Assembly (NCBI GenBank): GCA_005885035.1
Contig: VAXZ01000057.1
Location: 1-39,819 of the forward strand
Length of the DNA: 39,819 nt
From: Actinomycetota bacterium
GTDB lineage: Bacteria; Actinomycetota; UBA4738; HRBIN12
Direction: 5' to 3'
Shown here: positions 1 through 31,158 of the stretch, piece after piece
Position numbering within the stretch: the first letter of the stretch is position 1
Layout of the letters: every line of letters begins with the position of its first letter
Notes under the pieces: model-generated
Seen by the model: the letters and a program-made list of their open reading frames with translations, nothing else
Told to the model about the DNA's origin: nothing
Databases searched by the model: none
Program-made: the position numbers and the translations under genes

Positions 1-589
1 TCTCATAGCCCACGCGGAGGGCGAGCCCACCCCCGCGGCGGATCGGCAGCTCGGTCACGAGCGCGCCCGCTTCGCGTGCGCGGCGGGCCGTGGCGTCGTC
101 GCTCCCGTCGCTCACCACGACGGGGATCACCTGCATGCCCTCCAGCTCTCGGGGGATCGCGCGCACGACGTCGCCGACGCTGTCCTGCTCGTTGTATGCC
201 GGCGAGATCACGACGACGCGTCTGCCTTCGGGAAGGGCGGCGGCCCGCTCCCAGTCGAACCGCTCCCGGCCGAGCGCCTCGATCAACAGCCGCAGTCCCC
301 GATCGTTCGTGTCGGACCCCGTCTGGAGCCTCAGCACGAGGAAGAGCAGGAGGAGGACGCCGATCACCAGGACGAAGATCACCCGACGCTCCGCACCGGG
401 CACGATGTGGAACCAGTTGAAGACCGGGTCGTAGACGGACGGACGGAGCGACAGGACGATGAGCGCCGTTCCGAGCAGGCTCGCGACGATCAGGCTGAGG
501 CGGCTGATCCGGCGCCGGTCGTACGCCTGGACGGACATGAGGAACAGGCCGATCCCGGCGACGATCCCCAGGATCCTGACGGCCGTCAT
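1..589 (-). CDS. DUF2304 - family 2 glycosyltransferase fusion (3' end cut by window)
   Basis: Open reading frame running off the left edge; I translated it directly from the minus strand. ATG at 589 follows a GAGG Shine-Dalgarno by 5 nt and lies 7 nt after the sqdB stop, so it is in the same operon. Residues 1 to about 95 hold three hydrophobic segments of DUF2304 type. A GT-A domain starts near residue 125, with VISPAYNEQDSVGDVV and then VVVSDGSDD (the usual VDDGSxD). DUF2304 proteins are commonly encoded beside dolichol-phosphate-mannose-synthase-like GT2 enzymes; here both are in one chain. Expected role: a membrane-tethered transferase acting on a polyprenyl phosphate or membrane acceptor. 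Its place beside sqdB makes a sulfoquinovose or related sugar donor possible, but that is inference. The acceptor-binding half lies outside the window. Confidence 0.8.
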   Translation of the reverse strand, partial: MTAVRILGIVAGIGLFLMSVQAYDRRRISRLSLIVASLLGTALIVLSLRPSVYDPVFNWFHIVPGAERRVIFVLVIGVLLLLFLVLRLQTGSDTNDRGLRLLIEALGRERFDWERAAALPEGRRVVVISPAYNEQDSVGDVVRAIPRELEGMQVIPVVVSDGSDDATARRAREAGALVTELPIRRGGGLALRVGYE

Positions 590-596
590 GGACGCC

Positions 597-1760
597 TCAT
601 CTCGGGCGGATCGGTCGCCAACGATCCTTCGGAAGGATGTGATCGACGATCACGCGATCCTTGAAACGTTCGATCGTCGAGAACATCGATCCGATGAGTG
701 TCTCGTCCAGCAGGTGCGGTCGCAGACCGAGATCCAGCAGCTTCGTGTGTGCGGCGTTGTAGTAGTGCTGCTCGGCCTCGACGCGGGGGTTGTCGATCGG
801 ATGGACCGCCACGTCCATGCCGATCTCTGCGCCCGCCTTCTGGACCAACTCGGCCAGCTGCACCACCGAGAACTGCTGCGTGAATTGGTTGAAGACCCGA
901 TACTCGCCGGCCTGCGGTGGATACGCGACCGCGAGCTCGACGCAGCGAAGGGTGTCCTCGATGTTGATATACCCGCGCGTCTGTCCGCTGGCCCCATACA
1001 CGGTCAGCGGGTGGCCGATCACCGCCTGAAGGCAGAACCGGTTGAGCGCGGTGCCGAAGACGTCGTCGTAGTCGAACCGCGTGAGCAACCGATCATCGAG
1101 CGCCGTCTCCTCCGTCCGGATGCCGTACACGACGCCCTGATGCAGGTCGGTCGCGCGCAGGCCCCAGACGCGACACGCGAAGTGGAGGTTGTGCGAATCG
1201 TGCACCTTCGAGAGGTGGTAGATCGACCCGGGCAGCTTCGGGAACGGGAGATAGTCCGCCCTGCCGTTGTGACGAACCTCGATGAAGCCCTCTTCGATGT
1301 CGATGTTCGGTGTGCCGTACTCACCCATCGTGCCGAGCTTCACGAGATGAGCGTCCGGGGCGAGGTCTCGGATCGCGTAGAGCACATGCAGGGTGCCGAT
1401 GACGTTGTTCGACTGCGTGAAGACCGCGTGCTCGCGATCCTTCATCGAGTAGGGGGCGCTGGGCATCTCGCCGTAATGCACCACGGCGTTCGGTCCGAAG
1501 CTGTCGAACACCGCCTCCACGACGTCCCAGTCCGTCAGGTCCCCCCACGTGACGCCGATCTCCTTTCCCGTGAGCTCCCGCCAGGCGGCGACCCGCTCCG
1601 GGAGCCGGCGGATCGGGGTCAACGAATCGGTTCCGGCCTGCTCGTGCGCGTAGCGCCGGAGCTCGTTGTCGACCACGTGGACCTCATGGCCTCGAGCGGA
1701 GAACCGCATCGCGGTCGGCCAGCCGAGGTAGCCGTCGCCGCCTAGGATCAAGATGCGCAT
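597..1760 (-). CDS. sqdB: UDP-sulfoquinovose synthase (SQD1/SqdB-type NAD-dependent epimerase)
   Basis: 387 aa, full length. SqdB converts UDP-glucose plus sulfite to UDP-sulfoquinovose, the sulfonated sugar donor for sulfolipids and some glycans. The N-terminal Rossmann motif GGDGYLG is at residues 7-13. The SQD1-specific stretches DSLTPI, SAPYSMKDR, KLGTMGEYGTPNIDIEEG and the RATDLHQGVVYG region are all present. Thr144, Tyr181 and Lys185 match the catalytic Thr/Tyr/Lys of plant SQD1 (145/182/186 as I recall them), so activity is likely. ATG 1760 overlaps the upstream PLP-enzyme gene by 13 nt, and the GT2 fusion follows after 7 nt, giving a tight three-gene operon. Generic UDP-glucose 4-epimerase is excluded by the SQD1-type insertions. 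No photosynthesis genes are in the window. Confidence 0.93.
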   Translation of the reverse strand: MRILILGGDGYLGWPTAMRFSARGHEVHVVDNELRRYAHEQAGTDSLTPIRRLPERVAAWRELTGKEIGVTWGDLTDWDVVEAVFDSFGPNAVVHYGEMPSAPYSMKDREHAVFTQSNNVIGTLHVLYAIRDLAPDAHLVKLGTMGEYGTPNIDIEEGFIEVRHNGRADYLPFPKLPGSIYHLSKVHDSHNLHFACRVWGLRATDLHQGVVYGIRTEETALDDRLLTRFDYDDVFGTALNRFCLQAVIGHPLTVYGASGQTRGYINIEDTLRCVELAVAYPPQAGEYRVFNQFTQQFSVVQLAELVQKAGAEIGMDVAVHPIDNPRVEAEQHYYNAAHTKLLDLGLRPHLLDETLIGSMFSTIERFKDRVIVDHILPKDRWRPIRPR

Positions 1761-2929
1761 GTGTGGTAGTGGCAGAATCCGACCCGCACGGCGCCACCGG
1801 TGTCGAGCAGCCCGAGCCGGTCGAACACCTCGATCGCGTAGTAGTGCCCGTCCCAGGTGAAGATGCCGCGCCGGGCGAGCGCCGCGGAGGTCTCCTTCGG
1901 ATGCTGGCTCCCGACCCGGATCGCGAACGTCGGCGTTCGCTCGTCCACACGATCGGGGTGGCCGATCCCGATCAACCGCGCGCCTGGGATCCGAGCGATC
2001 CCCTCGAGGAACCTGATCGCGAGCATGCGTTCGTGGGCAGCGATCGCCTCGAACCCGCCCACCGAAACGATGTACCGGATAGCCGCGATCGTCCCGGCCA
2101 TCGATTCGTGGCTCTGCGTGCCGGTCTCCCAGCGGTCCGGGACGGCGTCGGACGCCGGTCGCAGCTTGTAGGGCTCCCAGGACGCGAGGAGCTCGCGACG
2201 AACGGCCATCATCCCCAGGTGAGGTCCGAAGAACTTGTACGGCGAGGTCGCCACCATGTCGGCGCCGATCGCGTGTAGGTCGATCGCGCGGTGCTGCGCG
2301 AAGTGCACGCCATCGAGGGCCACGAGGGCTCCGACCGCTTTGGCCCGTCGGACCAGCTCGGTCGCCGGCGGGATCGTCCCGACGGCGTTGGAAGCGAGCG
2401 TGAGCGCGACGAGCCGCGTCCGCTCGGAGAGCTGCCGCTCGAACGACTCCAGGTCGAGCGTCACGTCGTCGTCCCGGACGTCGACCCAGCGAACCGCCGC
2501 GCCGGCATCGCGCGCCGCGAGGATCCAGGGCCGAACGTTGGCATCGTGATCGAGTCGGGTCACGACGACCTCGTCCCCGGGCTCGAGGGTTCGCGAGAAC
2601 GAGCGTGACAGATGCAGCAGGAGCGAGGTGGCGTTCTGGCCGAACACGACCTCGTCGGGGTCGCACCCCAGGAAGCCGGCGCCCGCCCGGTGCGCCTCGG
2701 CGATCACGTCGTCGATCTCCTCGCTGAGCGGGAAGACCCCGTGCGTGTTCGAGGCACCGGCCGCCATCCTGTTCGCGACCGCGTCGATCACGCTCTCGGG
2801 GGTCTGCGATCCTCCAGGAGCGTCGGCCCAGACGAACGGGCGGCCGTCCGCGCCCACCCGCGCGAGCGCGGGGAAGCGGGCGCGGACGGCCGTCACGTCG
2901 AAGGTGGTGGCGGTCTGACGGATCGTCAT
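1748..2929 (-). CDS. Cysteine-desulfurase-like PLP enzyme lacking the catalytic cysteine
   Basis: About 393 aa, fold-type I, class-V aminotransferase superfamily (NifS/CsdA-like branch). The PLP-contacting region ALDGVHFAQH and the Schiff-base lysine in SPYKFFGPH (near residue 232) are visible. Where SufS/CsdB enzymes carry the nucleophilic Cys in a GHHCA motif, this protein reads DGHYYAIEV, so ordinary persulfide-forming desulfuration is unlikely. In CsdB-type enzymes the Cys is reported to be dispensable for cysteine sulfinate and selenocysteine. A sulfite-releasing lyase feeding SqdB is therefore an attractive inference, not shown. I chose ATG 2929 with a weak GGGA upstream; an in-frame GTG at 2947 is the alternative. 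It overlaps sqdB by 13 nt, which suggests translational coupling. Confidence 0.8.
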   Translation of the reverse strand: MTIRQTATTFDVTAVRARFPALARVGADGRPFVWADAPGGSQTPESVIDAVANRMAAGASNTHGVFPLSEEIDDVIAEAHRAGAGFLGCDPDEVVFGQNATSLLLHLSRSFSRTLEPGDEVVVTRLDHDANVRPWILAARDAGAAVRWVDVRDDDVTLDLESFERQLSERTRLVALTLASNAVGTIPPATELVRRAKAVGALVALDGVHFAQHRAIDLHAIGADMVATSPYKFFGPHLGMMAVRRELLASWEPYKLRPASDAVPDRWETGTQSHESMAGTIAAIRYIVSVGGFEAIAAHERMLAIRFLEGIARIPGARLIGIGHPDRVDERTPTFAIRVGSQHPKETSAALARRGIFTWDGHYYAIEVFDRLGLLDTGGAVRVGFCHYHTCAS

Positions 2930-4973: not shown

Positions 4974-5605
4974 GCCGCTCGTTCCAGCGTCTTCGCGACC
5001 TTCCTGAGATCGGCGACGAACGCCTGCATCGCTTCCTCTCGTGCGTCGTCGGGCGTGCGCAGGATCGATGACGGGTGCACCGTCGCCATCACGAAGGGAG
5101 CGAGCGGCGACTCGACGAACCGGCCTCGATCCTGCGTGACCCGGAACGATCGGCCCAGGAGCGCTTGCGCCGCGGTCGCGCCGAGGCACACCAGGACGGT
5201 CGGTCGCACCTGTTCGAGCTCGGCGTCCAGCCACGGCCGGCACGCCAGCTGCTCACGCAGATCGGGTTTGCGATGGATCCGGCGCTTGCCTCGTGGTGCC
5301 GGCTTCCACCGGAAGTGCTTGACCACGTTGGTCACATAGACGTCGGCACGATCGATCCCCGCATCCTCCAAGGCGCGGTCGAGGACCCCGCCGGCGGGAC
5401 CGACGAACGGGTGGCCCTCCACGTCCTCGCGGTCGCCCGGTTGCTCGCCGATGAGCATCACGCGGGCTCGCTCCGAGCCCTCACCGAAGACGGCCTGCGT
5501 CGCGTTGAGGTACAGGTCGCAGCCCTGACAGCTCTGGACGGCCTTCGCGAGAGAGGTCAAGGAACGTTCCTGGGGGAGGAACCCATCTGCGGAGTTCTCG
5601 GTCAT
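4970..5605 (-). CDS. udgX: UdgX-type uracil-DNA glycosylase/cross-linking protein
   Basis: 211 aa, family-4-like uracil-DNA glycosylase. Motif A is GEQPGDRED (residues 53-61) and motif B is HPSS (177-180). Cys26, Cys29, Cys122 and Cys140 have the C-x2-C ... C-x17-C spacing of the 4Fe-4S cluster. The UdgX-specific loop KRRIH is present, with His111 at the place of the His (109 in M. smegmatis) that becomes covalently joined to the uracil-site sugar. The protein should therefore bind uracil DNA irreversibly. ATG 5605 lies 72 nt from the shared SOS box (5678-5693), so damage induction is likely. The gene converges on the DUF6504 gene with a 4-nt stop overlap. Confidence 0.92.
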   Translation of the reverse strand: MTENSADGFLPQERSLTSLAKAVQSCQGCDLYLNATQAVFGEGSERARVMLIGEQPGDREDVEGHPFVGPAGGVLDRALEDAGIDRADVYVTNVVKHFRWKPAPRGKRRIHRKPDLREQLACRPWLDAELEQVRPTVLVCLGATAAQALLGRSFRVTQDRGRFVESPLAPFVMATVHPSSILRTPDDAREEAMQAFVADLRKVAKTLERAA

Positions 5606-5649
5606 CCAGGAACGGTCCTACCCGATCCGATCGGACCGGGAAACACCGC

Positions 5650-5693
5650 TTGACGGATGTCGCCACGAAGCTCAGACTCGAACATACGTTCGA
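5650..5693. promoter_or_regulatory. Second SOS promoter/LexA box between udgX and dnaE2
   Basis: The same 16-nt box as at 4659 lies at 5678-5693. TTGACG at 5650-5655 and CAGACT at 5673-5678 (17-nt spacer) form a plausible promoter for dnaE2. The 11-nt string CTTGACGGATG is shared with the first SOS promoter. On the minus strand TATGTT within the box could serve udgX. One LexA site may thus control both directions. Confidence 0.85.
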
Positions 5694-5711
5694 CCTCGAG
5701 ACGGGCCATCT

Positions 5712-8700
5712 ATGTCCTTCGTGCACCTCGATGTCCGCTCCTATTTCTCCTTGAAGGAAGGAGCGTTCGCCCCGGAGCAGCTGGCCGAGCAGGCAGCGGG
5801 TCTGGGGATGTCTGCGGTCGCGATGACCGATCGCAACGGTCTCTATGGGGCCGCCCGGTTCGTCTCGGCATGTCAACGCAACGGTGTGAAACCCATCCTC
5901 GGCGCTTCCCTCACCGTGCGTGCGCCCGCTCCGCCCCCTCGCGATGCCCACGTCGTGCTGCTGGCTGAGGACGACACCGGGTACGCGAACCTCTGCCGTC
6001 TCCTCACGGACGCCCAGCTGTTGGGCGAGCGCGGAGATCCGTGGGTCGCGACCGAGCAGATCTGTGCGCACGCGGCCGGGATGACCGTCCTGCTGGGCCC
6101 GCGGTCGCACCCGGGGCGGCTCGCCGTCGCCGGTCGCGTCGACGCCGCCGCGCGGCTGGCAGCGCCGTTCCGCGAAGCCTTCGGTCCCGATCGGTGCATC
6201 GTCGCCGTCGAGGATCGCCTGGAGGCCGGCTCGGCCACCGAGACCCGGACGATGCTCCGGTTCGCGGAGAAGCTCGACGCCGTCGCCGTCGCGACGAACC
6301 CGGTCCGGTACCTCGTGCCCGACGATGCGTTCCTGGCAGACGCGCTCGAGTGCATGCGGGCGATCGTGCCGGTCGCATCCAGCAACGTGACCCGGATGAA
6401 CGCGGAGGGATGGCTGAAGCCACCTGCCGAGATGCGCGCTCTCTTCGCCGAACGCCCCGATCTCTGCGATGCGACGCTCGAGGTCGCCGAGCGGTGCACG
6501 TTCGATCTCGGTCTGAAGCAGGTCCACTTCCCGGACTTCCCGATCCCCGGTGGTCGCTCCGCCGATGATGTGCTTGCCGACCGATGTTGGCGCGGCGTCC
6601 ACGAGCGCGGCATGAAGCAGGACGAGCGACTCCGAGATCGCCTGCATCACGAGCTCTTGATGATCCGGCAGATGGGATACGCGGCCTACTTCCTGACCGT
6701 TGCGGAGATCGTGGCGGACGTGAAGGCGATGGGGATCATGGCTGCATGCCGGGGGAGCGCGGCCGGGTCGCTCGTCTGTTACCTCACCGGGATCTCCGAC
6801 GTCGACGCGCTCCGGCACGACCTTGCGTTCGAACGGTTCCTGAACCCGATGCGCGATGAGCTCCCCGATGTCGATATCGACGTGGAGTCGGCCCGCCGCG
6901 AGGACGTCTACGACATGATCCTGTCTCGTCACGGGCAGGAACGCGCCGCGTGCGTCGCGATGATCGACACGTTCCGGGCGCGCGCAGCGATCCGGGAGGT
7001 TGGCAAGGCGATCGGTCTGCCCGAGGTCGAGGTCGGCATGGTCGCGAAGGCCTTCCCGCACATCTCGGCGCGGAACATCCGCGATGGCCTGGAACGCCTG
7101 CCCGAGCTTCACGGCATCAACCTGCCGATGCGGCAGCTGGAGCTGCTGTTCCGTGTCGCCGAGCGCCTCGACGGGTTCCCTCGGCACATCGCGCTGCACC
7201 CATGCGGGATCGTGCTGTCCTCGCACGACCTCGTAGACAGGGTGCCGCTCGAGCGCTCCGCCAACGGTCACCGGATGGCCCAGGCGGACAAGGACGACGT
7301 CGAGGAGCTGGGGTATCTCAAGCTCGACATCCTCGGGGTGCGGATGCTCTCGTCCATGCGTCATGCGCTCGACGAGATCGCCCGGACCACCGGGGAGAAG
7401 GTCGATCTGGACCGGATCGCGCTCGATGACCGTCCCACCTTCGACCTGATCCGCGCGTCGGACACGCTGGGGTGCTTCCAGATCGAATCGCCCGGTCAGC
7501 GAGAGCTGTTGCAGAAGCTGCAACCCGATCGGTGGGAGGACCTGATCGTCGACATCTCGCTGTTCCGCCCTGGCCCAGTGAAGTCCGACATGATCCGTCC
7601 GTACCTCTCGCGCCGGATGACCTTGGAGCAGCCGAGCTACATCCACCCGGGACTGCGGCCGGCCCTCCAGGAAACGTTCGGTGTGATCGTCTACCACGAA
7701 CAGGTGATGCGGACGCTCGCCGCGCTCGCCGGATATTCCTTAACCGAGGCCGACCACATCCGTCGACATCTCGACCGCGAGGATCTGCTGCCAGGGTTCC
7801 AGCGGGACTTCCTCGCGCGGGCGACCGCACGTGGGGTAACGCGGGAGGCCGCCGAGAAAACGTGGGACGCGGTTGCTCAGTTCGCCTCGTTCGGGTTCTG
7901 CAAGGCACACGCGGCCGCGTTCGCGGTCCCGACATACCGCTCGGCGTGGCTGAAGGCGAACTTTCCCGCGCAATTCCTTGCGGGCGTACTCACGCACGAC
8001 CCGGGGATGTATCCGCGTCGCATGATCCTGGACGACGTCCGGCGTCACGGCATCCCGATCCTGCCGCTCGACGTGAACCGCAGCGAACCGGAGTACGTGG
8101 TGGAGGAGGTTGGGTCGGTCGGGTCGCGGTCTCGCTGCGCCGTCGGCGCGGATGCGAACGCTGGGGAGGGTCGTGGGACGCGCGTCGGCGACGCGGCGCG
8201 TGCACCGGCCGAGCCGTCCGAGGAAGCTGTGTCATCCGCGCCGACGGCGCAGCGCGATCCACGACCCGACCAACGCTTCGCCATCCGCCTCGCCCTCCAG
8301 GACGTCCACGGGATCAGCGACGCCGAGATCCGGTCGATCCTGGAGGCACGCGCGGAGCGACCGTTCGGCGACGTCGGGGACTTCCTGCGTCGCACCACCG
8401 TGACGCGCCCGGTCGCAGAGGCGCTCGCGCACGCCGGCGGGTTCGATGCACTCATCGGATCGGGAACGAACCGCCGCGGGCACCTGTACGACGCGATCAC
8501 CGTGGATGCGCCGCGCGAGGGCGACCAGCTCACGCTCGCCGATGCCGTGGCGCCGGCGCATCGGTTCCCCGAGTACACGGATGCGGAGGTGGTGAGGGCC
8601 GAGCTGGAGGTGCTCGGCCTCGATGTCACTCGACACCTCGTGAGCTTCTTCGAACCGCTCCTCACCGATCTCGGGGTGACGCGGGCGAAGGATCTGCACC

Positions 8701-9100: not shown

Positions 9101-10240
9101 ATGGCCAGGCCGTCCGAGCCGATCCTGCACGTCGACCTCGACGCCTTCTACGCGAGCGTCGAGGTGTTGAAGGATCCGTCGCTCCGCGGGAAGCCCGTGA
9201 TCGTCGGCGGGACCGGCTCCCGCGGCGTGGTCACGAGCGCGTCGTACGAAGCACGACGTTCGGGCGTGCACTCGGCCATGCCCTCGGTCCGCGCTCGAAG
9301 GTTGTGCCCCGAGGGCATCTTCCTCCCGCCGGACTTCGAGGCGTACCGCGTGCATTCCAACCGCTTCCGCGAGGTGATGCTGTCGTTCACGCCGCTCGTG
9401 GAGCCCATCTCGCTCGACGAGGCCTTCCTGGACGTCGGGGGAGCGACCCGGCTCTTCGGGGAGCCGCGCGAGGTCGCCGGGAAGATGCGCGACGCCGTCC
9501 TGGAGGGTGTCGGGGTGACATGCTCGGCGGGCGTCGCGTCCACGAAGTTCGTCGCGAAGCTCGCGTCAGCTCACTGCAAGCCCGACGGTCTCCTGCACGT
9601 GCCTGCGACCCAGGCCATCGGCTTCCTCGAGCCGCTGCCGGTCGGACGGCTGTCTCGGCATCTCACCCAGCTCGCCCACGGCCTGGACGAACGCGAGGTG
9701 ATCCCCTACGAGGCGCCCAAGTCGATCGGTCACGAAGAGACCTTCGACCGCGATCTGGACGACGACGGGGAGATCTTGCGCGAGCTCCTGCATCTGTCCG
9801 GTCGGGTCGCCGCGCGGCTCCGCGAGGACGGGTACCGCGCGCACACGGTGACGCTCAAGGCGCGCCTGGCGAACTTCACGACGCTCACCCGGTCGCGCAC
9901 CGTCCGCGACCCAACGGATGTCGGCGCCGATCTGTACCAGGTTGCCGGCGAGCTCTATCGGGCGCTCCCCGGAACGGGACGCCGCATCCGTCTGCTGGGC
10001 GTGCAGGCGAGCGGGCTCGTGCGGGCCGGCGCTGAGCAGCTCGCGCTGCTCCGCGCCGGCCGCTGGGACGACGTGGAGCGGACGCTCGATCGGATCGAGC
10101 GGCGATTCGGCAGGGGCTCGGCGACCCAAGCGACCTTGCTCGACCGGGATCGCGGGCGGCCGCGGTCTCCCGCGGCCGCCCGCGATCCCACCCTGGATCC
10201 AGGGTTCCGCGGTTCCGGGGAGCCTCCCTATAATCGGTGA
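9101..10240 (+). CDS. dinB: Y-family DNA polymerase IV
   Basis: 379 aa from ATG 9101. Catalytic motifs HVDLDAFYASVE (N-terminal) and SLDEAFLDV are intact. The little-finger domain ends near AEQLALL, a plausible beta-clamp-binding motif (QLxL-type). An earlier in-frame ATG at 9071 overlaps the dnaE2 stop (ATGA) and would add 10 residues by coupled translation. I prefer 9101 because TAGCGT at 9087-9092 is placed 8 nt before it like a leaderless -10 and because family N-termini begin close to here. Together with dnaE2 it forms an SOS polymerase pair, in the position ImuB takes in mycobacteria. The last roughly 30 residues (after ATLLDRD) are encoded by a hairpin and nearby palindromes and look like a read-through tail. 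Confidence 0.9.
   Translation: MARPSEPILHVDLDAFYASVEVLKDPSLRGKPVIVGGTGSRGVVTSASYEARRSGVHSAMPSVRARRLCPEGIFLPPDFEAYRVHSNRFREVMLSFTPLVEPISLDEAFLDVGGATRLFGEPREVAGKMRDAVLEGVGVTCSAGVASTKFVAKLASAHCKPDGLLHVPATQAIGFLEPLPVGRLSRHLTQLAHGLDEREVIPYEAPKSIGHEETFDRDLDDDGEILRELLHLSGRVAARLREDGYRAHTVTLKARLANFTTLTRSRTVRDPTDVGADLYQVAGELYRALPGTGRRIRLLGVQASGLVRAGAEQLALLRAGRWDDVERTLDRIERRFGRGSATQATLLDRDRGRPRSPAAARDPTLDPGFRGSGEPPYNR
10146..10189 (+). terminator. 20-bp perfect hairpin inside the dinB 3' end
   Basis: Arms 10146-10165 and 10170-10189 are perfect 20-nt reverse complements with a TCTC loop. A second 14-nt palindrome (CCCTGGATCCAGGG, 10191-10204) follows directly. No stop codon occurs before it, so the dinB frame passes through the hairpin and ends at 10240. 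It probably terminates the dnaE2-dinB transcript although it lies in the coding frame. Confidence 0.65.
10229..10234 (+). promoter_or_regulatory. -10 element for DUF3040 gene
   Basis: Consensus TATAAT at 10229-10234, with a weak TTCCGC at 10205-10210 (18-nt spacer). It lies 41 nt before the DUF3040 start and overlaps the dinB 3' end. Confidence 0.6.
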
Positions 10241-10275
10241 TGGCGGTCGGATCCCCCACGACCGGAGGTCACGGG

Positions 10276-10629
10276 ATGCCACTCAACGATCACGAACAGC
10301 GCATCCTCGATGAGATCGAGCGACGCCTCGCTGAAGACGACCCGAATTTCGTCGAGCAGGTGGGGCGGACCGATCTCTATACGCATCACACGCGCGGGAT
10401 CCGGCTCGCGGCTGTCGGGTTCCTGCTGGGATGCGCCTTGCTGCTTCTGATCTGGGTGTCCATCTGGATCCCGCTCATCGGCTTCGCCGTGATGGTGTCC
10501 TCAGCGCTGCTGATCTACCGCTACCTCGGGCAGCTCGGTCGCGACCAGATCCGCGCGATGCAGGAGGAGGGCGCGTTCTCCATGACCGGGCTCATCGGGC
10601 GGATCGCCGCGCGGTTCCGACGCTCCTGA
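10276..10629 (+). CDS. DUF3040 small membrane protein
   Basis: 117 aa. The N-terminus MPLNDHEQRILDEIERRLAE is the DUF3040 signature, followed by two adjacent transmembrane helices (about residues 45-90) and a basic C-terminus. DUF3040 is an actinobacterial family often encoded near dinB and the mraZ/dcw region; its function is unknown. ATG 10276 is preferred over an upstream in-frame ATG at 10237 because GGAGG (10264-10268) is spaced 7 nt from it and because the family begins at MPL. Confidence 0.88.
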   Translation: MPLNDHEQRILDEIERRLAEDDPNFVEQVGRTDLYTHHTRGIRLAAVGFLLGCALLLLIWVSIWIPLIGFAVMVSSALLIYRYLGQLGRDQIRAMQEEGAFSMTGLIGRIAARFRRS

Positions 10630-10852
10630 CGCGTCGTCCCTCGGGGCGTGACGGTCTAGCTCGAGGGGATGATTTCTCACACGTCACTAGCTCGACGGTT
10701 GCCACACTCACGCGTCGAGGTGTACAACGAGCGCTCTTCCTCGGGCGCTGACCGTCAGGCCGGAAAGCAGAACGCTTCCCCGTCCGATCCGACGGCCCGC
10801 CCATGTTTCGGTGGTCGGGTCGGAGAGAGGAACCGAAGGGGCGTACATCTGC

Positions 10853-11335
10853 ATGGAGGGGTTCACCGCTCATCAAGCGTGCAAATTCACGGGATGCTCG
10901 TCACGCCAGCTCCGCTATTGGGACCAGATCGGACTGGTGGAACCGTCGGTCCAAGGAACGGGCGGTCGCCCAGGTGTGCCGCGTCTGTACTCGTTCCGCG
11001 ACCTCGTGGCGCTCCGCGTCGTGCGGTCCCTCATCGACGGCGGGATGTCGTTGCAGCGGGTGCGACGGTCGTGGGAGTTCCTCAACAAGAAGGCGGGTCT
11101 GGACCGACATCTGTCGGAGGTCCGGCTGGTCACCGATGGACAGTCGATCTTCAAGATCTGCCGTCGCGACGGGGAGGTGATGGACGCCCTGAAGGACGGG
11201 CAGATGGCGTTCTTCGTCGCGATCGACGACATCGCGACCTCAGTGCACACCGATGTGCGTTCCTTCGAAGAGGATCGGGAGCGGTTCGTCCGGGGGTTGC
11301 GCGAGGCTGCGGCCCACACGGCGACCGGCTCTTGA
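10853..11335 (+). CDS. MerR-type transcriptional regulator
   Basis: 160 aa. Residues about 5-75 form a MerR winged helix-turn-helix: FTAHQACKFTGCSSRQLRYWDQIGLV, a wing with GRPGVPRLYSFRDLVAL, and a following helix SLIDGGMSLQRVR. The C-terminal half has no recognised ligand-binding or Cys-metal motif. The target is not evident: the upstream 220-nt region shows no clear MerR-type 19-bp spaced promoter. ATG 10853 is used; an in-frame GTG at 10811 is an alternative. It converges with the transglutaminase gene (4-nt gap). The region 10630-10852 holds only a 9-nt direct repeat CTAGCTCGA (10656, 10687). Confidence 0.8.
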   Translation: MEGFTAHQACKFTGCSSRQLRYWDQIGLVEPSVQGTGGRPGVPRLYSFRDLVALRVVRSLIDGGMSLQRVRRSWEFLNKKAGLDRHLSEVRLVTDGQSIFKICRRDGEVMDALKDGQMAFFVAIDDIATSVHTDVRSFEEDRERFVRGLREAAAHTATGS

Positions 11336-16739: not shown

Positions 16740-17177
16740 TTGGCCGAACTGCTCGGCACGCACAGCTACCAACTCGACCCGAAGGGGCGCGTGTCCCTGC
16801 CGGCTCGGTTCCGTGAGACGTTCGCCGACGGGGCGTGGCTCACGATCGGCCAGGACGGCTGCCTCTACGTCTTCCCCAGCGCCGAGTGGCAGCGCCGGTC
16901 CGATGAGGTCGCAGCGTTCCCCCTTTCCGACATGGCCGGGCGTGCGTACGGGCGGCTGTTCTTCGGCTCGTCGGATGAAGCCAAGCTGGATGGACAGGGT
17001 CGCCTCACGATCCCGCAACGACTTCGTGACCGCGTGGGGATCCGCAAGGACGTCGTCGTGCTCGGCGTCCGCGATCGGATGGAGATATGGGACCGCACCA
17101 GCTACGAACGTTACGAGGCCGCGCACGCGGGCGCGTATCAGGCCGGAGCATTGGAACCGGGCAAGGGCACGGGCTGA
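16740..17177 (+). CDS. mraZ: Transcriptional regulator MraZ
   Basis: 145 aa with two SpoVT-AbrB-like half-domains: LLGTHSYQLDPKGRVSLPARFRE (about residues 4-26) and FGSSDEAKLDGQGRLTIPQRLRD (about 80-102), each with the DxxGR motif. MraZ assembles as a ring and represses the dcw operon through the repeats upstream. Start TTG at 16740: GGGGAG is 5 nt upstream and the family begins at this LLGTH; a GTG at 16719 would fall in the last operator repeat. First gene of the cluster. Confidence 0.95.
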   Translation: MAELLGTHSYQLDPKGRVSLPARFRETFADGAWLTIGQDGCLYVFPSAEWQRRSDEVAAFPLSDMAGRAYGRLFFGSSDEAKLDGQGRLTIPQRLRDRVGIRKDVVVLGVRDRMEIWDRTSYERYEAAHAGAYQAGALEPGKGTG

Positions 17178-17214
17178 CCGCCGCCCGCCCATCGAAGGAG
17201 AGAGGTAGGGATCG

Positions 17215-17334
17215 ATGGAGCAACCACGGAAGTTGAGCGACGAGGTTCGTCAGAGCCTGTCGTTGATCGGGATGACCGCATTGACGTTACTCGCCTCGAT
17301 TGCGTTCGGGCTGCTCGTCGGGCACATCGGGTGA
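17215..17334 (+). CDS. 39-aa single-span membrane peptide between mraZ and rsmH
   Basis: Not recognised. Reads MEQPRKLSDEVRQSLSLIG, then a hydrophobic helix (MTALTLLASIAFGLLVGHIG). So it has a charged 15-residue N-terminus and one membrane span with a very short exit. AGGAGAGAGG lies about 11 nt upstream of ATG 17215, and its stop is one nt before the rsmH GTG, so it is translated as part of the operon and may couple rsmH translation, which has no good Shine-Dalgarno of its own. Location at the head of the dcw cluster suggests a division or wall accessory role; that is inference only. Confidence 0.65.
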   Translation: MEQPRKLSDEVRQSLSLIGMTALTLLASIAFGLLVGHIG

Positions 17335-17335
17335 C

Positions 17336-18223
17336 GTGGCGACCGAGGGTGGACACGAAGCGGTCATGACGGCCGAGGTGATCGAGCTCCTCGCTGGTCG
17401 TCGAACCGTCGTCGACATGACGGTCGGTTCCGGTGGCCACGCCGCGGCGTTGCTGGAAGCCGGTGTGTCGCGGCTCGTGGGCGTCGACCGTGATCCTGAG
17501 GCCCTGGCGCTCGCTCGCGAGCGGCTGAGCGCGTTCGGCGATCGCGTGCGCCTGGTGGGAGCCCTCTTCTCCGAGGTCGATGAGGACGTCGTCGGTGGCA
17601 GTGCCGACGGTGTGCTCTTCGATCTCGGGGTCTCCTCGATGCAGCTCGACCGTCCGGAGCGCGGGTTCGGGTACCGCGTGGACGGGCCGCTCGACATGCG
17701 GATGGGCGAGGGGAGCGGGGCGGCGGCGCCGAGCGCTGCGGACCTGGTCAACGGGCTTCCCGAGCGGGACCTCGCGGATCTGATCTTCCGCTTCGGTGAG
17801 GAACCGCGATCGAGGCGGATCGCAGCCGCGATCGTCCGCCGCCGTCCGATCCGAACCACGGATCAACTCACCGGCATCATCGTGAGCGCCGTCGGGAAGC
17901 GCCCGGGGGGCCCCCACCCCGCGCGACGCACGTTCCAGGCGCTCCGCATCGCGGTCAACCGGGAGCTCGAGGAGCTCACCGCGGCCCTGCCTCCCGCGGC
18001 AGGGCTCCTCGGCCCCGGTGGCCGCGTGGTCGTCATCTCGTACCACTCTTTGGAAGACCGGATCGTGAAGCGAGCGTTCCGGGATGACGACCGTCTCGAC
18101 GTCCTGACGAAGAAGCCGCTCGTGGCGAGCGCGGCCGAGCGGGCACGGAACCCACGTGCCCGGAGCGCCAAGCTGCGTGCGGCGGAGCGTTCCACCCGGG
18201 AAGCGGCCAGGGAAGCAGCATGA
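17336..18223 (+). CDS. rsmH: 16S rRNA (cytosine1402-N4)-methyltransferase
   Basis: 295 aa. SAM-binding motif VDMTVGSGGHAAALLEAG near residue 28, FDLGVSSMQLDRPERGFGYR, RTFQALRIAVNRELEEL and GGRVVVISYHSLEDRIVKRAF are the RsmH signatures, ending with RNPRARSAKLRAAER. It N4-methylates C1402 in the ribosomal P site. GTG 17336 sits one nt after the small membrane peptide stop; the longer frame from 17300 overlaps that peptide. Ends in an ATGA overlap with ftsL. Confidence 0.95.
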   Translation: MATEGGHEAVMTAEVIELLAGRRTVVDMTVGSGGHAAALLEAGVSRLVGVDRDPEALALARERLSAFGDRVRLVGALFSEVDEDVVGGSADGVLFDLGVSSMQLDRPERGFGYRVDGPLDMRMGEGSGAAAPSAADLVNGLPERDLADLIFRFGEEPRSRRIAAAIVRRRPIRTTDQLTGIIVSAVGKRPGGPHPARRTFQALRIAVNRELEELTAALPPAAGLLGPGGRVVVISYHSLEDRIVKRAFRDDDRLDVLTKKPLVASAAERARNPRARSAKLRAAERSTREAAREAA

Positions 18224-18621
18224 GTGCCCCGGCAGGCAGCCTCGTCTCTCCTGCTCCGAAGCGTGCGGACCCCTCCCGCACCCCCGCGGCGCGCCCGCGC
18301 GCCACTCCTTCCCCGCACCATCGTGCGCGGGTGCGCCGCGGGACCCCCCCGTTCTGGGTCATGACGGCGGTCATCGTGACCGCGATGGTGGTCGGGATCG
18401 TGTCGCTCTCGGCCCTCGCCGTCCAGGCCAGCTTCCGTTCCGATGCCCTTCGCCAGCAGCTCGGCTCGCTCACGCAACGACAGCAGTCGCTCCGCGAGGA
18501 CCTTGCTGCGGCCTCCGCGCCATCGCGCGTCATGGGGTGGGCGCGGAAGGAAGGGATGGCGATGCCCGAGCGCGTGGTGATCATCCGCGTCCCGCCGGGT
18601 CCGTCGGGACTCGGCGAGTGA
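18220..18621 (+). CDS. ftsL: FtsL-like septum protein
   Basis: 133 aa. Long basic Pro/Arg-rich cytoplasmic tail (1-43), one membrane helix (about 46-70), then a short coiled coil (RSDALRQQLGSLTQRQQSLREDLA) and a C-terminal GMAMPERVVIIRVP, which matches FtsL/FtsB-type ends. In the FtsQLB complex it links the divisome to FtsW/FtsI activation. Identification rests on topology and position between rsmH and ftsI; sequence conservation in this family is low. ATGA overlap with rsmH, GTGA overlap with ftsI. Confidence 0.8.
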   Translation: MSAPAGSLVSPAPKRADPSRTPAARPRATPSPHHRARVRRGTPPFWVMTAVIVTAMVVGIVSLSALAVQASFRSDALRQQLGSLTQRQQSLREDLAAASAPSRVMGWARKEGMAMPERVVIIRVPPGPSGLGE

Positions 18622-20324
18622 AGCGCCCGCCCGTGCATCGCCTGGTCGTCTTGCTCCTTACCGTCGTGCTCGCGATCGGCGGCGTCGTGGTAAGGCTGGC
18701 GGTGCTCCAGGTGCGCGAGTCGGGGACCTACGCGGAGCTGGGATCGACCCAGCGGGTGCACACGGAACCCCTTCCGTCTCTGCGCGGCGAGATGCTCGAT
18801 CGCACCGGCGTGCCGATGGCGCTCACGCTCGACGCCCGAGACGTCTACGCGAACCCGAGCCTCGTGGTCGACGCGGCGACCGAAGCCGGGCAGATCGCAC
18901 CGGTGCTCGGACTCAAAGAGAAGGACGTCCGCGCTGCGCTGTCGTCGCCGGGAACGTTCGCCTACGTCGAACGCCAGGTCGACTTCGACATCGCGCAGCA
19001 CGTGGCGGACCTACACCTACCCGGCATCGGTCTCTTGCCGGTTGTGAAGCGCTACTACCCGGCGGGACCCGTGGCGCCCCAGGTCTTGGGGTTCGTGAAC
19101 GTCGATGGGGTCGGGACCACCGGGCTCGAGCGCCAATACGACCAGTTGTTGGCCGGCTCACCGGGGGAGCGCACCGTGGAGCTCTCGGCTCAGGGCCAGG
19201 AGATCGGCGGCGGCCGACAGATCGTCCAGGATCCTCAGCCGGGAAGCAGCGTCGTCCTGACGATCGACCGAGACCTCCAGTTCCAGGCCCAGCAGTACCT
19301 GCAGAAGGCCGTTCGGCAGAACCATGCGAAGGGCGGCACCATCGTCGTGCTGGATCCGCACACCGGTGACGTGTACGCGATGGCCTCGTATCCGTGGTTC
19401 GATCCGAACTCATTCGCCTCGTTCGACCCCACGCGGTTCGTCAACCGGGCGGTCACCGATACCTGGGAGCCGGGGAGCGTCAACAAGACGATCACCGCGG
19501 CAGCCGCGTTGGAATCGGGTGCGGTCACGCCGACGGAACGGTTCGCGGTCCCCGGAACGCGCCGGGTGGAGGGCTACACGATCCATGACGCCGAACCACA
19601 CGGCAGGGAGACGATGACGCTCGGCGACATCATCGCGCACTCGAGCAACGTCGGTGCGTCCCTCGTCGCCGATCGGACCGGGAACCGGACGATGGAGGAG
19701 ACCTTCGCTCGGTTCGGGTATGGCACTCCGACCGGGATCGGGTTCCCGGGCGAAGCGGCGGGGCTGATGCCGGCGGCGCCATGGTCCGATCTGACCCGAG
19801 CGACCGTCTCGTTCGGCGCCGGCGTGGCCGTCACGCCGCTCCAGATGGCGAGTGTGTACGCGACGATCGCCAATGGCGGAACCTGGGTGCAGCCGCGACT
19901 GGTCGACGCCACGATCGGACCCGACGGCGTTCGTCACGATGCGCCCCCACCGGTCACCCGGCGGGTGCTTCGACCATCCACGACGCAGACGCTGACGGAG
20001 ATGCTCGCGTACGTCGTGCAGGATGGGACCGGCGTGTCCGCGCAGATCCCCGGGTACCAGGTGGCCGGGAAGACCGGGACCGCGAAGAAGCTGGATGCGA
20101 ACGGCCACTACGTCAGCAGGTACGTCGCCTCGTTCATCGGGTTCCTCCCTGCGTCCCGGCCTCGCGTCGTCGTCGCCGTGATCATCGATGAGCCGCGGAC
20201 GGTGTACGGAGGCGTCGCGGCGGCGCCGGTCTTCCAACAGGTCGCCCGGTACGCGATCCAACGGCTCGGGATCGAGGCCGCCCCCGCCGTTCCGCTCCCT
20301 CCGCACGCGATGCCCGTGCCATGA
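18618..20324 (+). CDS. ftsI: Septal peptidoglycan transpeptidase FtsI (PBP3)
   Basis: 568 aa. N-terminal signal-anchor helix (about residues 9-29), dimerisation/pedestal region with RGEMLDRTGVPMA, and a transpeptidase domain with Ser287-Val-Asn-Lys290 (SxxK), Ser342-Ser-Asn344 (SxN) and Lys485-Thr-Gly (KTG). All catalytic motifs are present; Val-Asn within SxxK is less common than Thr-Phe but allowed. No PASTA domains. It crosslinks septal peptidoglycan with FtsW. GTG 18618 overlaps the ftsL stop; ends in ATGA with murE. Confidence 0.95.
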   Translation: MKRPPVHRLVVLLLTVVLAIGGVVVRLAVLQVRESGTYAELGSTQRVHTEPLPSLRGEMLDRTGVPMALTLDARDVYANPSLVVDAATEAGQIAPVLGLKEKDVRAALSSPGTFAYVERQVDFDIAQHVADLHLPGIGLLPVVKRYYPAGPVAPQVLGFVNVDGVGTTGLERQYDQLLAGSPGERTVELSAQGQEIGGGRQIVQDPQPGSSVVLTIDRDLQFQAQQYLQKAVRQNHAKGGTIVVLDPHTGDVYAMASYPWFDPNSFASFDPTRFVNRAVTDTWEPGSVNKTITAAAALESGAVTPTERFAVPGTRRVEGYTIHDAEPHGRETMTLGDIIAHSSNVGASLVADRTGNRTMEETFARFGYGTPTGIGFPGEAAGLMPAAPWSDLTRATVSFGAGVAVTPLQMASVYATIANGGTWVQPRLVDATIGPDGVRHDAPPPVTRRVLRPSTTQTLTEMLAYVVQDGTGVSAQIPGYQVAGKTGTAKKLDANGHYVSRYVASFIGFLPASRPRVVVAVIIDEPRTVYGGVAAAPVFQQVARYAIQRLGIEAAPAVPLPPHAMPVP

Positions 20325-21820
20325 CCCCCGCCGGCCGGCGTGTAGGCTCGCCGGCGGTGGAGCTTCCCCTTCCCGCCGTCACGCTCAGCGACGCAGCGGC
20401 CGCGGTCCGAGCAGAGGTACGGGGTGACGATGGGCGTCTGCTCACCGACGCCTCGTACGACTCCCGGACGGTGGAGCCCGATTCGCTCTTCTTCTGCATC
20501 ACCGGTGAACACGTCGACGGTCACCGTTTCGCCTCGGAGGCGCTCGCGGCCGGAGCCGCCGCGATCGTCGTGGAGCGATGGCTCCCGTTGGATGCCCCGC
20601 AGGCCCTGGTTCCATCGGTACGCGGATCGATCGGTCCGATGTCCTCCGTGCTCTTCGGCCGCCCGGCCGAGGCGCTGACGACGATCGGGATCACCGGAAC
20701 GAACGGCAAGACGACCACCACGTATCTCCTCGAGGCGATCATCCGCGCATCCGGATCGCGAGCGGGCGTCATCGGGACGAACGGCGCGCGGATCGATGGG
20801 AGCCCGGTCGAGCTCGCCCGGACGACTCCAGAGGCGCCGGACCTGCATCGTCTGCTCGCACGGATGCGTTCGGCGGGGGTCCGGATGGTCGCCATGGAGG
20901 TGTCCTCGCACGCGCTGGCGCAGCAGCGCGTCGGCGGCGTGGTGTTCGACGTCGCGGTCTTCACGAACCTCTCCCAGGATCACCTCGACTACCACGGGAC
21001 GATGCAGACGTACCTGGATGCGAAGGCGTCCCTCTTCACGCCCAGCCAGGCTGTGCGGGGGGTCCTCAATGTCGACGATCCTTCGGGCCGAGCCCTGACC
21101 GGGCGTGCGGCGATCCCGGTGGTGACCTACGGGGTCGATCGCGACGCCGACCTCCGGGCCTCCGAGGTGGTCGTGGATGCTGGCGGGATCTCCTTCCGGG
21201 TGGAAGGCGTGACGGTCCGCTCGGCGCTCCTTGGAGGCTTCAACGTGTCGAACTGCCTCGCGGCGATGGGCTCAGCCCGGGAAGTGGGGATCTCGCTCGA
21301 GACGGCCGCCGACGCGCTCGGGCAGGTGCGCGACATCCCCGGTCGGATGGAAACCATCGATGCAGGACAGGAGTTCCTGGTGGTGGTGGATTACGCGCAC
21401 ACGCCGGATAGCATCCGGGTCGTGCTCCGGGGCGCACGCTCGCTGGCCGCCGGCCGCGTGATCGTCGTGTTCGGGTGTGGCGGCGACCGCGACCGGGCGA
21501 AGCGTTCCTCCATGGGGCAGGCCGCCACGTCGTCCGCCGATCTCACGGTGATCACGACGGACAACCCTCGCTCCGAAGACCCGCTGGCTATCATCCGGGA
21601 GATCGTCCCGGGCGCGGTCGCGGGCGGCGGGGAGTACGTCGTCGAGCCGGACCGACGCGCGGCGATCCGGCTGGCCGTCCGGGAGGCGGAGCCCGGCGAC
21701 GTCGTGGTGGTCGCCGGCAAGGGCCACGAGCCGTACCAAGAGGTGGAAGGAATCGCCGTGCCGTTCGACGACCGGTCGATCGCCCGGGACGAGCTTGGCT
21801 CGCTCCTGGAGGAGGCGTGA
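20321..21820 (+). CDS. murE: UDP-MurNAc-L-Ala-D-Glu:meso-DAP ligase
   Basis: 499 aa. ATP site GITGTNGKTTTT; TTPEAPDLHRLL; MEVSSHAL; carbamylatable lysine in YLDAKASLF; DYAHTPDS; and TTDNPRSEDP, where DNPR predicts meso-diaminopimelate as the added amino acid. Complete and canonical. ATG 20321 overlaps the ftsI stop. An in-frame GTG at 20357 is a serious alternative start: TAGGCT at 20343-20348 stands 8 nt before it in the leaderless arrangement seen elsewhere in this window, and the first 12 residues are not conserved. Confidence 0.95.
   Translation: MTPAGRRVGSPAVELPLPAVTLSDAAAAVRAEVRGDDGRLLTDASYDSRTVEPDSLFFCITGEHVDGHRFASEALAAGAAAIVVERWLPLDAPQALVPSVRGSIGPMSSVLFGRPAEALTTIGITGTNGKTTTTYLLEAIIRASGSRAGVIGTNGARIDGSPVELARTTPEAPDLHRLLARMRSAGVRMVAMEVSSHALAQQRVGGVVFDVAVFTNLSQDHLDYHGTMQTYLDAKASLFTPSQAVRGVLNVDDPSGRALTGRAAIPVVTYGVDRDADLRASEVVVDAGGISFRVEGVTVRSALLGGFNVSNCLAAMGSAREVGISLETAADALGQVRDIPGRMETIDAGQEFLVVVDYAHTPDSIRVVLRGARSLAAGRVIVVFGCGGDRDRAKRSSMGQAATSSADLTVITTDNPRSEDPLAIIREIVPGAVAGGGEYVVEPDRRAAIRLAVREAEPGDVVVVAGKGHEPYQEVEGIAVPFDDRSIARDELGSLLEEA
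20343..20348 (+). promoter_or_regulatory. Possible internal leaderless promoter for murE
   Basis: TAGGCT, 8 nt before the in-frame GTG 20357 inside the 5' end of murE. No clear -35. Would give a separate entry point into murE-ftsQ. Confidence 0.3.
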
Positions 21821-23067
21821 AGCCGCGACCGCTCGCGAGCGTCGCGGCCGCCGTCGGGGGTGAGCGCGCCGGCGACGACGTCGATATCTCCTCGGTGACT
21901 ACCGACTCGCGACAGGCGAGCCCGGGGGCGCTCTTCGTCGCGCTCGCCGGCGAACGGACGGACGGGCACCGGTTCGTCCAGGACGCGGTCGCTCGCGGCG
22001 CCGCCGCTGTCCTGGTGCGACAGGGAGCGGATGCTCCGGCGCCGAAGGTCCAGGTCGCCTCGCCCGCGGACGCGCTGTCGCGCCTCGCGGCCGACGAGCG
22101 ACGACGGTTCGACGGCACGGTCGTCGCGGTCGCCGGTGCGAACGGGAAGACGTCGACGAAGGACATGACCGGGGCCGTGGTGTCGACGCGGTTCCGCGTG
22201 CACGCGAGTCCGGGATCGTTCAACAACGAGATCGGCCTGCCGCTGACCCTCCTTGGCGCTCCGCCGGACGCGGAGGTGATCGTCGCCGAGCTCGGTGCCC
22301 GGCGGGCAGGAGACGTGGCGGTCCTGATGCCGATCGCGCGACCCGACATCATCGTCGTCACGAACGTCGGCGTGGCGCACATGGAGATCTTCGGCTCGTG
22401 GGACGTGATCGTCCGCGCTTCCGCCGAACCCGTCGAGGCGATGGACGAGGCCGGCGTGCTCGTGCTGAACGCCGACGACCCCGTCGTGGCCGGGTTCGCG
22501 AGCCGCGCCAGCGCGCGGGTGCTGACGTTCGGGCGCGCTCCGTCCGCGAACGTGCGCGCCGAAGGGGTCGGGATGCGCCCCGACGGCCGGCCCACGTTCG
22601 ACCTGGTTGCCGGCGGCGGCCGCGAGCGCGTCACGCTTACGGTTGCGGGCGAGCACATGGTCAGCAACGCGCTCGCGGCCGCCGCCGTCAACGATGCCTA
22701 CAACGCCAACCCTGAGTCGATGGCGGCCGCCTTGAAGGCCGCGACGGTGATGGCCGCGGATCGGCGTGTGGTCGCGGTGCTTGGGCAGATGGCGGAGCTC
22801 GGCGACATCGGACCCGCGGAGCACGAGCGCGTGGGCGAGCTCGCCGCGCGGCTCGGAGTCGATCGACTGATCACCGTGGGGACCGAAGCGAAGTCGATCG
22901 CGGTCGCCGGCCTTCGCGAGGGGTTCGAGCCCGATGCGGTCGCCAACTACGACGACATCGAGACCGCGCTCCAGGACGTCCGTGCCCACATCCGGCGCGG
23001 CGATCTGGTGCTCGTGAAGGGCTCGCGGGTCGCCGGGCTCGAGACGCTCGCGGAGGCGCTGCGGTGA
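21817..23067 (+). CDS. murF: UDP-MurNAc-tripeptide D-alanyl-D-alanine ligase, atypical
   Basis: 416 aa. N-terminal domain with TTDSRQASPGALFVAL, ATP site VAGANGKTSTKDM, SFNNEIGLPLTLL, TNVGVAHMEIFGS and the C-terminal VLGQMAELGD identify MurF, which adds D-Ala-D-Ala to the precursor. Two oddities. (1) SNALAAAAV (to residue 291) runs straight into NDAYNANPESM (292 on); other MurF proteins have about 35-40 residues here, including the (G/W)RM segment that starts the C-terminal domain. (2) The usual AKxELVEAL segment reads ASAEPVEAM, so Ser202 takes the expected Lys position. The frame is open, so it is translated; function may be changed or lost, or the gap may be an assembly deletion. GTG 21817 follows GGAGGAGGC and overlaps the murE stop. 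Confidence 0.88.
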   Translation: MKPRPLASVAAAVGGERAGDDVDISSVTTDSRQASPGALFVALAGERTDGHRFVQDAVARGAAAVLVRQGADAPAPKVQVASPADALSRLAADERRRFDGTVVAVAGANGKTSTKDMTGAVVSTRFRVHASPGSFNNEIGLPLTLLGAPPDAEVIVAELGARRAGDVAVLMPIARPDIIVVTNVGVAHMEIFGSWDVIVRASAEPVEAMDEAGVLVLNADDPVVAGFASRASARVLTFGRAPSANVRAEGVGMRPDGRPTFDLVAGGGRERVTLTVAGEHMVSNALAAAAVNDAYNANPESMAAALKAATVMAADRRVVAVLGQMAELGDIGPAEHERVGELAARLGVDRLITVGTEAKSIAVAGLREGFEPDAVANYDDIETALQDVRAHIRRGDLVLVKGSRVAGLETLAEALR

Positions 23068-24122
23068 TCTCGATCCTCGTGGCCGCCGCGGTGGGGCTGG
23101 CCGTAACGCTGCTCGGCACCCCCGCCGCGATCCGCGCGTTCCGCGTCCTGGGGTGGGGGCAACGGATCCGCGAGGACGGCCCCCACACCCACTTCGAGAA
23201 GATGGGGACACCCACGATGGGCGGGATCGTGATCATCGCTGGACTGTGTCTGGGCTATCTCGCGTCTCGGGTCACGGCGCAGCGGTTCACCGTCACCGGG
23301 GTCGCGCTCGTGTTCGCCACCGTCGGGTTCGGCGTCGTCGGGTTCCTCGACGACTTCATGAAGATGCGCCGTCGGCGCTCCCTCGGCCTGACGAAGGCGC
23401 AGAAGTTCGGCGGCACCGCCCTGGTGTCACTCGCCTTCGCGATGCTCGTGACGCACGTCGGGAACCCCGGGATCACCACCCATCTATCCTTCATCCGCCC
23501 GTCGTCGATCACGCTCGGTGTCCTGTTCTACGTCTGGGCGTTCCTGGTGCTCACCGGTTCGTCGAACGCGGTGAACCTCACCGATGGGCTCGACGGTTTG
23601 GCCGCCGGCTCGTCCATCATGGTGTGCAGCGCCTACGTGTTCATCTCCTTCTGGCAGTTCCGTCACACGTGCGTGCTCGTGCAGGGCGCGCCGGGGTGTT
23701 ACACCGTGAACGGCGTGGACCTGCAGGACGCCGCGATCGTCGCTGCCGCGATGACCGGCGCCGCGACCGGGTTCCTCTGGTGGAACGCCGCCCCCGCTCG
23801 CATCTTCATGGGCGATACCGGCTCGCTCGCGCTCGGTGGGCTCTTCGGAGCGCTCGCGCTCGTGACGAATACCGCGATCCTGCTGGTCATCATCGGAGGG
23901 CTCTTCGTGCTGGAGACGCTTTCGGTGATCGCGCAGGTGATCTCGTTCCGTGGGTTCGGTCGTCGCGTCTTCCGGATGTCGCCGATCCACCACCATTTCG
24001 AGCTCGCCGGCTGGCCGGAGTTCACCGTGATCGTTCGGTTCTGGATCGTCGCGGGGCTCTGTTCGGCGGTCGGGATGGGTCTGTTCTACGCGGACTTCAT
24101 CGCGCGCGGAGGGCTGGGATGA
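23064..24122 (+). CDS. mraY: Phospho-MurNAc-pentapeptide transferase (lipid I synthase)
   Basis: 352 aa, about ten membrane helices. Signatures: FLDDFMKMRRRRSLGLTKAQKF (catalytic Asp pair, Mg binding), NAVNLTDGLDGLAAG, FMGDTGSLALGG and SPIHHHFELAGWPE. It transfers phospho-MurNAc-pentapeptide to undecaprenyl phosphate. GTG 23064 overlaps the murF stop by the GTGA arrangement; its own stop overlaps an ATG that opens a 13-codon mini-ORF before murD. Confidence 0.96.
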   Translation: MISILVAAAVGLAVTLLGTPAAIRAFRVLGWGQRIREDGPHTHFEKMGTPTMGGIVIIAGLCLGYLASRVTAQRFTVTGVALVFATVGFGVVGFLDDFMKMRRRRSLGLTKAQKFGGTALVSLAFAMLVTHVGNPGITTHLSFIRPSSITLGVLFYVWAFLVLTGSSNAVNLTDGLDGLAAGSSIMVCSAYVFISFWQFRHTCVLVQGAPGCYTVNGVDLQDAAIVAAAMTGAATGFLWWNAAPARIFMGDTGSLALGGLFGALALVTNTAILLVIIGGLFVLETLSVIAQVISFRGFGRRVFRMSPIHHHFELAGWPEFTVIVRFWIVAGLCSAVGMGLFYADFIARGGLG

Positions 24123-30962: not shown

Positions 30963-31009
30963 ACGCGACGAACACACTTTCCGGGTCCAGCTGAACGAGA
31001 GACGTGCGC

Positions 31010-31038: not shown

Positions 31039-31044
31039 CGCGAC

Positions 31045-31080: not shown

Positions 31081-31158
31081 AGATAGTTAGGTCGGCTGCA
31101 TCACGAACGGCGTTTCCCCAGGTAGGTGAGTGGTAGCTCACTCGGAGGAATGAGACAG

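Follow-up and report, generated by a model that had tools for sequence, protein, structure and literature searches.

The window analysed here is the whole of contig VAXZ01000057.1 (C46; 39,819 nucleotides) from an actinobacterial genome (GCA_005885035.1, G000) of 2.5 Mb in 166 contigs, which is 87% complete. At its left end (positions 1–2929, minus strand), three genes lie consecutively: a gene for a pyridoxal phosphate (PLP) enzyme with the class-V aminotransferase fold, cysteine desulfurase-like and of the VC1184 family (1748..2929); sqdB, encoding a 387-residue homologue of UDP-sulfoquinovose synthase (597..1760); and a gene of which the N-terminal 196 residues are present (2..589), with DUF2304 (Pfam, E 2.1e-9) followed by the start of a family 2 glycosyltransferase (GT2) domain. 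A previous reading of this DNA, made from the sequence only, had suggested that SqdB and the DUF2304-GT2 fusion form an unusual sulfosugar route in an organism without visible photosynthesis genes. In keeping with the latter point, no reaction-centre gene was found in the 17 genomes of the family.

The fusion starts at position 589, so the 7-nt spacing from sqdB that had been reported is correct. The gene is truncated by the contig edge at window base 1–2, and its C-terminal 151 residues were located on another contig of the same genome (G000:C131:3-458), which confirms the DUF2304-GT2 fusion downstream of sqdB. The window portion is 95% identical to a full-length relative, which carries both DUF2304 and Glycos_transf_2. 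Beyond the GT2 remainder, C131 continues with convergent genes named by appearance as PsuG, PfkB-kinase, ThiL and ThiE, in the same gene order as in two relatives (L003 and L004), so the sqdB unit ends with the fusion. The leftward extension proposed in the sequence-only reading, followed onto C131, showed no further glycan genes.

The claim that the window encodes a full-length SqdB with its catalytic residues was borne out. The protein aligned with Arabidopsis SQD1 over residues 2–384 (541 bits) and with the whole UDP-sulfoquinovose synthase model NF041015 (490 bits); the latter score is below the cut-off of 575, a value that a Chloroflexi SqdB adjoining SqdX likewise fails to reach. In the SQD1 alignment, the catalytic residues of the short-chain dehydrogenase/reductase type (1206..1331, minus strand) are retained as Thr144 (1329–1331), Tyr181 (1218–1220) and Lys185 (1206–1208), together with Met145, Glu147 and the TMGEYG motif.

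The function of the GT2 fusion was evaluated by profile, sequence and fold comparisons. The nearest curated models for the GT2 domain were AglJ, dolichyl-phosphate hexose transferase and PpgS, although none of the scores reached the cut-off, and the nearest solved proteins by sequence were DPMS and ArnC. The AlphaFold model of the full-length relative (predicted local distance difference test score, pLDDT, 85) matched the fold of DPMS, ArnC and GtrB, and matched glucosyl-3-phosphoglycerate synthases at similar scores. These fold matches indicate a GT-A fold, and in the GT2 alignment (A1) the D-x-D-G-Q motif is invariant. The helices of the model at residues 2–24, 30–48 and 67–110 correspond to DUF2304 as the membrane unit. 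DUF2304 is typical of GacJ, which sits in the membrane and stimulates the N-acetylglucosamine (GlcNAc)-P-undecaprenol synthase GacI (PMC8327497). GacJ-GacI fusions occur naturally, and a lactococcal WpsB-WpsA fusion with the same domain order as in the window is active, whereas the reverse order is inactive (PMC10821137). Together, the profile models, the fold, DUF2304 and the WpsB-WpsA and GacJ-GacI precedents make a polyprenyl-phosphate sugar synthase the best reading of the fusion, as judged by homology, modelling and analogy. At two loci of other families, a GT2 domain beside sqdB is fused to a polytopic domain with 7–9 transmembrane segments and not to DUF2304 (L126:6690-8849 and L127:8900-11035).

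The association between sqdB and the fusion was examined within the family and across the phylum. sqdB was present in 15 of the 17 family genomes, including all eight of the best ones, and the fusion was located directly downstream in every sqdB-bearing genome (15/15). The phylum survey took in 397 genomes of Actinomycetota, each at least 80% complete, with a threshold of E ≤ 1e-60 for the GT2 profile. sqdB was found in 95 of these genomes and the GT2 profile in 81, namely in 79/95 with sqdB versus 2/302 without it (Fisher p 3e-64, uncorrected for the relatedness of the genomes). The profile was detected in 12 of the 16 sqdB-bearing families, and both genes were located on one contig within approximately 5 kb, as counted from coordinates, in 52 of the 79 genomes. 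In family f14, genome G219 carries sqdB-GT2 and sqdB-SqdX on separate contigs, genome G167 shows the same arrangement, and the two kinds of sqdB form separate lineages in the tree. This pairing is the strongest argument that the fusion uses the SqdB product as an alternative to SqdX. A different locus (L012) contains two sqdB copies (5063-6247 and 10001-11173), one with Arg and one with Pro at the position discussed below, and each copy is accompanied by a separate GT2 fusion and by polytopic neighbours.

The classical partner of SqdB was searched for in the same genomes. No SqdX profile match was obtained at E ≤ 1e-50 in the family or order of the window, including family genomes more complete than the window's own, and strong SqdX matches (E ≤ 1e-100) among the sqdB-bearing genomes of the survey were confined to f14. 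Candidates in the window's own genome, GT4 matches at 27–38% identity, were rejected as MshA (over the curated cut-off) and a PimA-like protein, whose gene adjoins a phosphatidylinositol mannoside acyltransferase gene. The sequence-only reading had listed SqdX and the archaeal Agl3 as the ways in which the SqdB product is used; the list left out an alphaproteobacterial route in which sqdB is paired with a glycosyltransferase gene for a non-GT4 partner, which we take to be SqdD. No SqdD match was found in the 17 family genomes, in a search that used one distantly related query and lacked a positive control.

These searches bear on the alternative that an unrecognised lipid glycosyltransferase makes ordinary sulfoquinovosyl diacylglycerol (SQDG), with the GT2 fusion serving an unrelated sugar and sharing the operon by chance. 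SQDG synthesis is the best-known bacterial use of SqdB and its acceptor enzymes vary, the alphaproteobacterial partner being one example. However, neither SqdX nor SqdD was detected (the latter in a search without a positive control), the GT2 tracks sqdB even when the two genes are apart and is almost absent without it, and adjacent SqdX sits by its own sqdB copy. We regard this alternative as improbable. Two regions of the window's genome (G000 C113:88000-102150, L138, and C113:1-16000, L137) contain several GT4 and sulfotransferase-like genes and are possible glycan clusters that could hold an acceptor.

The PLP gene was considered as a possible third member of the unit. The enzyme scored 398 bits against TIGR01976 (VC1184 'cysteine desulfurase-like', class V; cut-off 352). 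Compared with solved SufS-type enzymes, the catalytic Cys loop is replaced (GHHC to GHYY) in the window protein and in most of the family members that were checked. The overlap of this gene with sqdB (1748..1760), described in the sequence-only reading, is real in the contig and is not conserved. Relatives have 35–80 bp between the two genes, and DNA alignment showed that the window lacks approximately 130 bp comprising the intergenic region and the last ~18 PLP codons, by a real deletion or an assembly error. Translational coupling through a conserved overlap was rejected, as the deletion is seen in this contig alone.

A pathway role for the PLP enzyme, with sulfite passing from cysteine sulfinate straight to SqdB, would fit the loss of the desulfurase Cys, the adjacency to sqdB in many family genomes and the presence of the cysteine sulfinate desulfinase CsdA among its solved relatives. 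However, the other neighbours of the PLP gene are conserved as well, so regional synteny explains the adjacency, and the gene is missing from the sqdB loci of other families and from several in its own. VC1184-type proteins are also widespread, and a fragment resembling CysH, located where a contig ends, suggests reduction of sulfate to sulfite as the usual supply. We consider a direct sulfite supply by this enzyme very improbable; on its sequence and neighbourhoods, the PLP gene is probably a family-level neighbour outside the sulfosugar pathway. Of the three-gene set whose conservation had been proposed as a check, sqdB and the fusion hold together in all 15 sqdB-bearing genomes of the family and the PLP gene does not.

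A later step of the pathway may involve the large polytopic proteins (7–14 predicted transmembrane segments) that adjoin sqdB or the fusion at numerous loci and belong to several groups unrelated in sequence. One group gave a weak PMT match. A low-confidence model of the group occurring in the window's family (pLDDT 67) was most similar to AftA and ArnT, and AglB and AftD followed with weaker matches; all four are glycosyltransferases of the GT-C class. The polytopic neighbours may be GT-C enzymes, and multi-component transmembrane glycosylation systems use parts of this kind (PMC8035078). A single homologue of the group modelled is encoded in the window's genome, on contig C5.

From these data, we propose that sqdB and the DUF2304-GT2 fusion constitute a two-gene sulfosugar unit acting through a polyprenyl-phosphate carrier towards GT-C transfer, and we consider this reasonably probable. 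SqdB would convert UDP-glucose and sulfite to UDP-sulfoquinovose; the DUF2304 part would anchor the GT2 domain at the membrane, where the fusion would transfer sulfoquinovose onto polyprenyl phosphate. The polyprenyl-linked sugar would then be flipped across the membrane, and a polytopic GT-C transferase would move the sugar to an extracytoplasmic glycan, glycoprotein or lipoglycan. The sequences themselves show the genes and their order, conservation and co-occurrence, the GT2 fold and the lack of SqdX and SqdD matches, while the substrates of both enzymes, the flipping, the GT-C step and the acceptor are inferred. The fuller proposal, that a polyprenyl-phosphate sulfoquinovose route decorates a surface glycan in many non-photosynthetic Actinomycetota families, alongside the SqdX route in some, appears to us evenly balanced between being right and wrong. 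The sequence-only interpretation was partly supported. The part of it that gave the fusion, instead of SqdX, the role of SqdB partner via polyprenyl phosphate came through both of its tests, as no sqdX homologue was found in the genome and the GT2 fusion co-occurs with sqdB in relatives; co-occurrence, paralogue pairing, fold and literature all favour it. The main caveat concerns the identity of the sugar and comes from the replacement of Arg101 with Pro, described below.

Several observations weigh against this proposal. The GT-C assignment comes from a low-confidence model with a best E of 7e-3, and in the genome of the window no GT-C-like gene is adjacent to the sqdB-fusion pair. A GT-C-like homologue is found in 16 of the 17 family genomes, and because two genomes without sqdB also carry one, the link of the own-genome homologue to the sulfosugar pathway is only suggestive. 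Families f52 and f37 are weaker cases of the association, as they match the GT2 in its catalytic part only and the matching genes are not adjacent to sqdB. In addition, the window SqdB has Pro100 (codon 1461..1463, minus strand) where SQD1 and Agl3 have Arg101, and among the 71 Pro-type sqdB loci examined, none adjoins SqdX (0/71). In Agl3 of Sulfolobus, the R101A variant is inactive, and the primers of that study place Arg101 within an EQRSAP motif (PMC4388408); the corresponding window motif is EMPSAP.

We analyzed this position further in 99 aligned SqdB sequences, which have Pro in 65, Ser in 2 and Arg in 32. In the tree, most Pro/Ser sequences, including that of the window, fall into one supported clade (45 rows, 98/83) that takes in all actinobacterial Pro/Ser SqdBs except one; SQD1 and the Arg-type SqdBs lie outside it, and Acidobacteria contribute another Pro group. 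Arg is found in every SqdB adjacent to SqdX (8/8) and in those of Chloroflexaceae and Roseiflexaceae. The GT2 fusion was found near 47 of the 71 Pro-type loci and near 10 Arg-type loci, these locus counts including some loci counted twice. Pro versus Arg at position 101 is possibly a functional split within the SqdB family. Because Arg101 is Pro and no Pro-type gene sits beside SqdX, the product of the Pro-type enzyme could differ.

One such possibility is that the Pro-type SqdB adds no sulfite and either functions as a UDP-glucose 5,6-dehydratase or uses another nucleophile, with the fusion loading the modified hexose on polyprenyl phosphate. Without sulfite, the SqdB family yields UDP-glucose-5,6-ene (PMC4388408), and the Pro/Ser replacement in 67 of the 99 sequences, with which His39 and His193 of the window protein co-vary as clade-specific candidates to stand in for Arg101, and the Arg in every SqdX-adjacent SqdB would fit this explanation. 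However, the same GT2 family pairs with Arg-type SqdB as well (10 loci), and the remaining key residues (His, Met, Glu, Tyr and Lys) are kept in a protein that scores 541 bits against SQD1. A sulfite-free reaction is unlikely in our view, though it deserves serious consideration, and from the sequence, UDP-sulfoquinovose is likely, not certainly, the product of the Pro-type enzyme. The window protein is best called a SqdB homologue, as Arg101 is not established as defining the family.

Compared with known systems, the proposed unit combines familiar parts. It shares with GacI/GacJ (WpsA/WpsB) a GT2 with DUF2304, arranged as in the WpsB-WpsA fusion that is active, and has polytopic GT-C-like proteins nearby in relatives; it differs in that the two parts form a natural fusion whose gene accompanies one for a UDP-sulfoquinovose synthase homologue, whereas the characterised pairs use GlcNAc. 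With SqdB-SqdX (SQD1-SQD2), it has in common a SqdB homologue with the catalytic residues of the short-chain dehydrogenase/reductase type, whereas here neither SqdX nor reaction-centre genes were found, Arg101 is replaced by Pro and a polyprenyl-phosphate-type GT2 takes the place of the partner. Agl3 in the N-glycan pathway of Sulfolobus acidocaldarius is likewise a SqdB homologue outside photosynthesis that feeds a glycoconjugate and not a glycerolipid, but it is archaeal and has Arg101, while the window protein is bacterial with a linked DUF2304-GT2. AglJ, PpgS, DPMS and ArnC, which the GT2 domain resembles most in sequence and fold, have C-terminal transmembrane helices, in place of which the fusion has an N-terminal DUF2304.

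Sulfoquinovose is mostly regarded as something that photosynthetic membranes produce. SqdB homologues in non-photosynthetic bacteria have already been recorded, including two in actinobacteria, Mycobacterium and Saccharopolyspora (PMC4388408). A literature search that covered few subscription journals returned no paper that links SqdB to DUF2304 or describes sulfoquinovose on a polyprenyl carrier in bacteria. SqdB outside photosynthesis and polyprenyl-phosphate sugar synthases are known already, and their combination was not found within this literature scope. If the proposal is true, soil actinobacteria would add to the sources of sulfosugar that feed the sulfur cycle in soil, and the product would be a strongly acidic surface glycan layer of a kind that we did not find described for bacteria in the literature searched. 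Families with both the SqdX and the fusion routes would offer a built-in comparison, and the two-gene unit is small.

The sqdB loci of Pseudonocardia and of Rhodococcus plasmids were considered as the same system and rejected, as the GT2s beside these sqdB genes are not closely related to the fusion. In a Rhodococcus qingshengii plasmid (L143, 4430-15945), sqdB has a SulP-type anion transporter gene upstream, and the downstream genes encode a protein with weak similarity to BcsB, a large GT2 of the membrane type and an alkyl sulfatase-like protein; this is perhaps a plasmid-borne cluster for a sulfosugar polysaccharide. Elsewhere in the window, positions 16740-32304 hold an ordinary division and cell wall cluster, with mraZ, mraW, mur genes, ftsW and ftsZ recognised by appearance.

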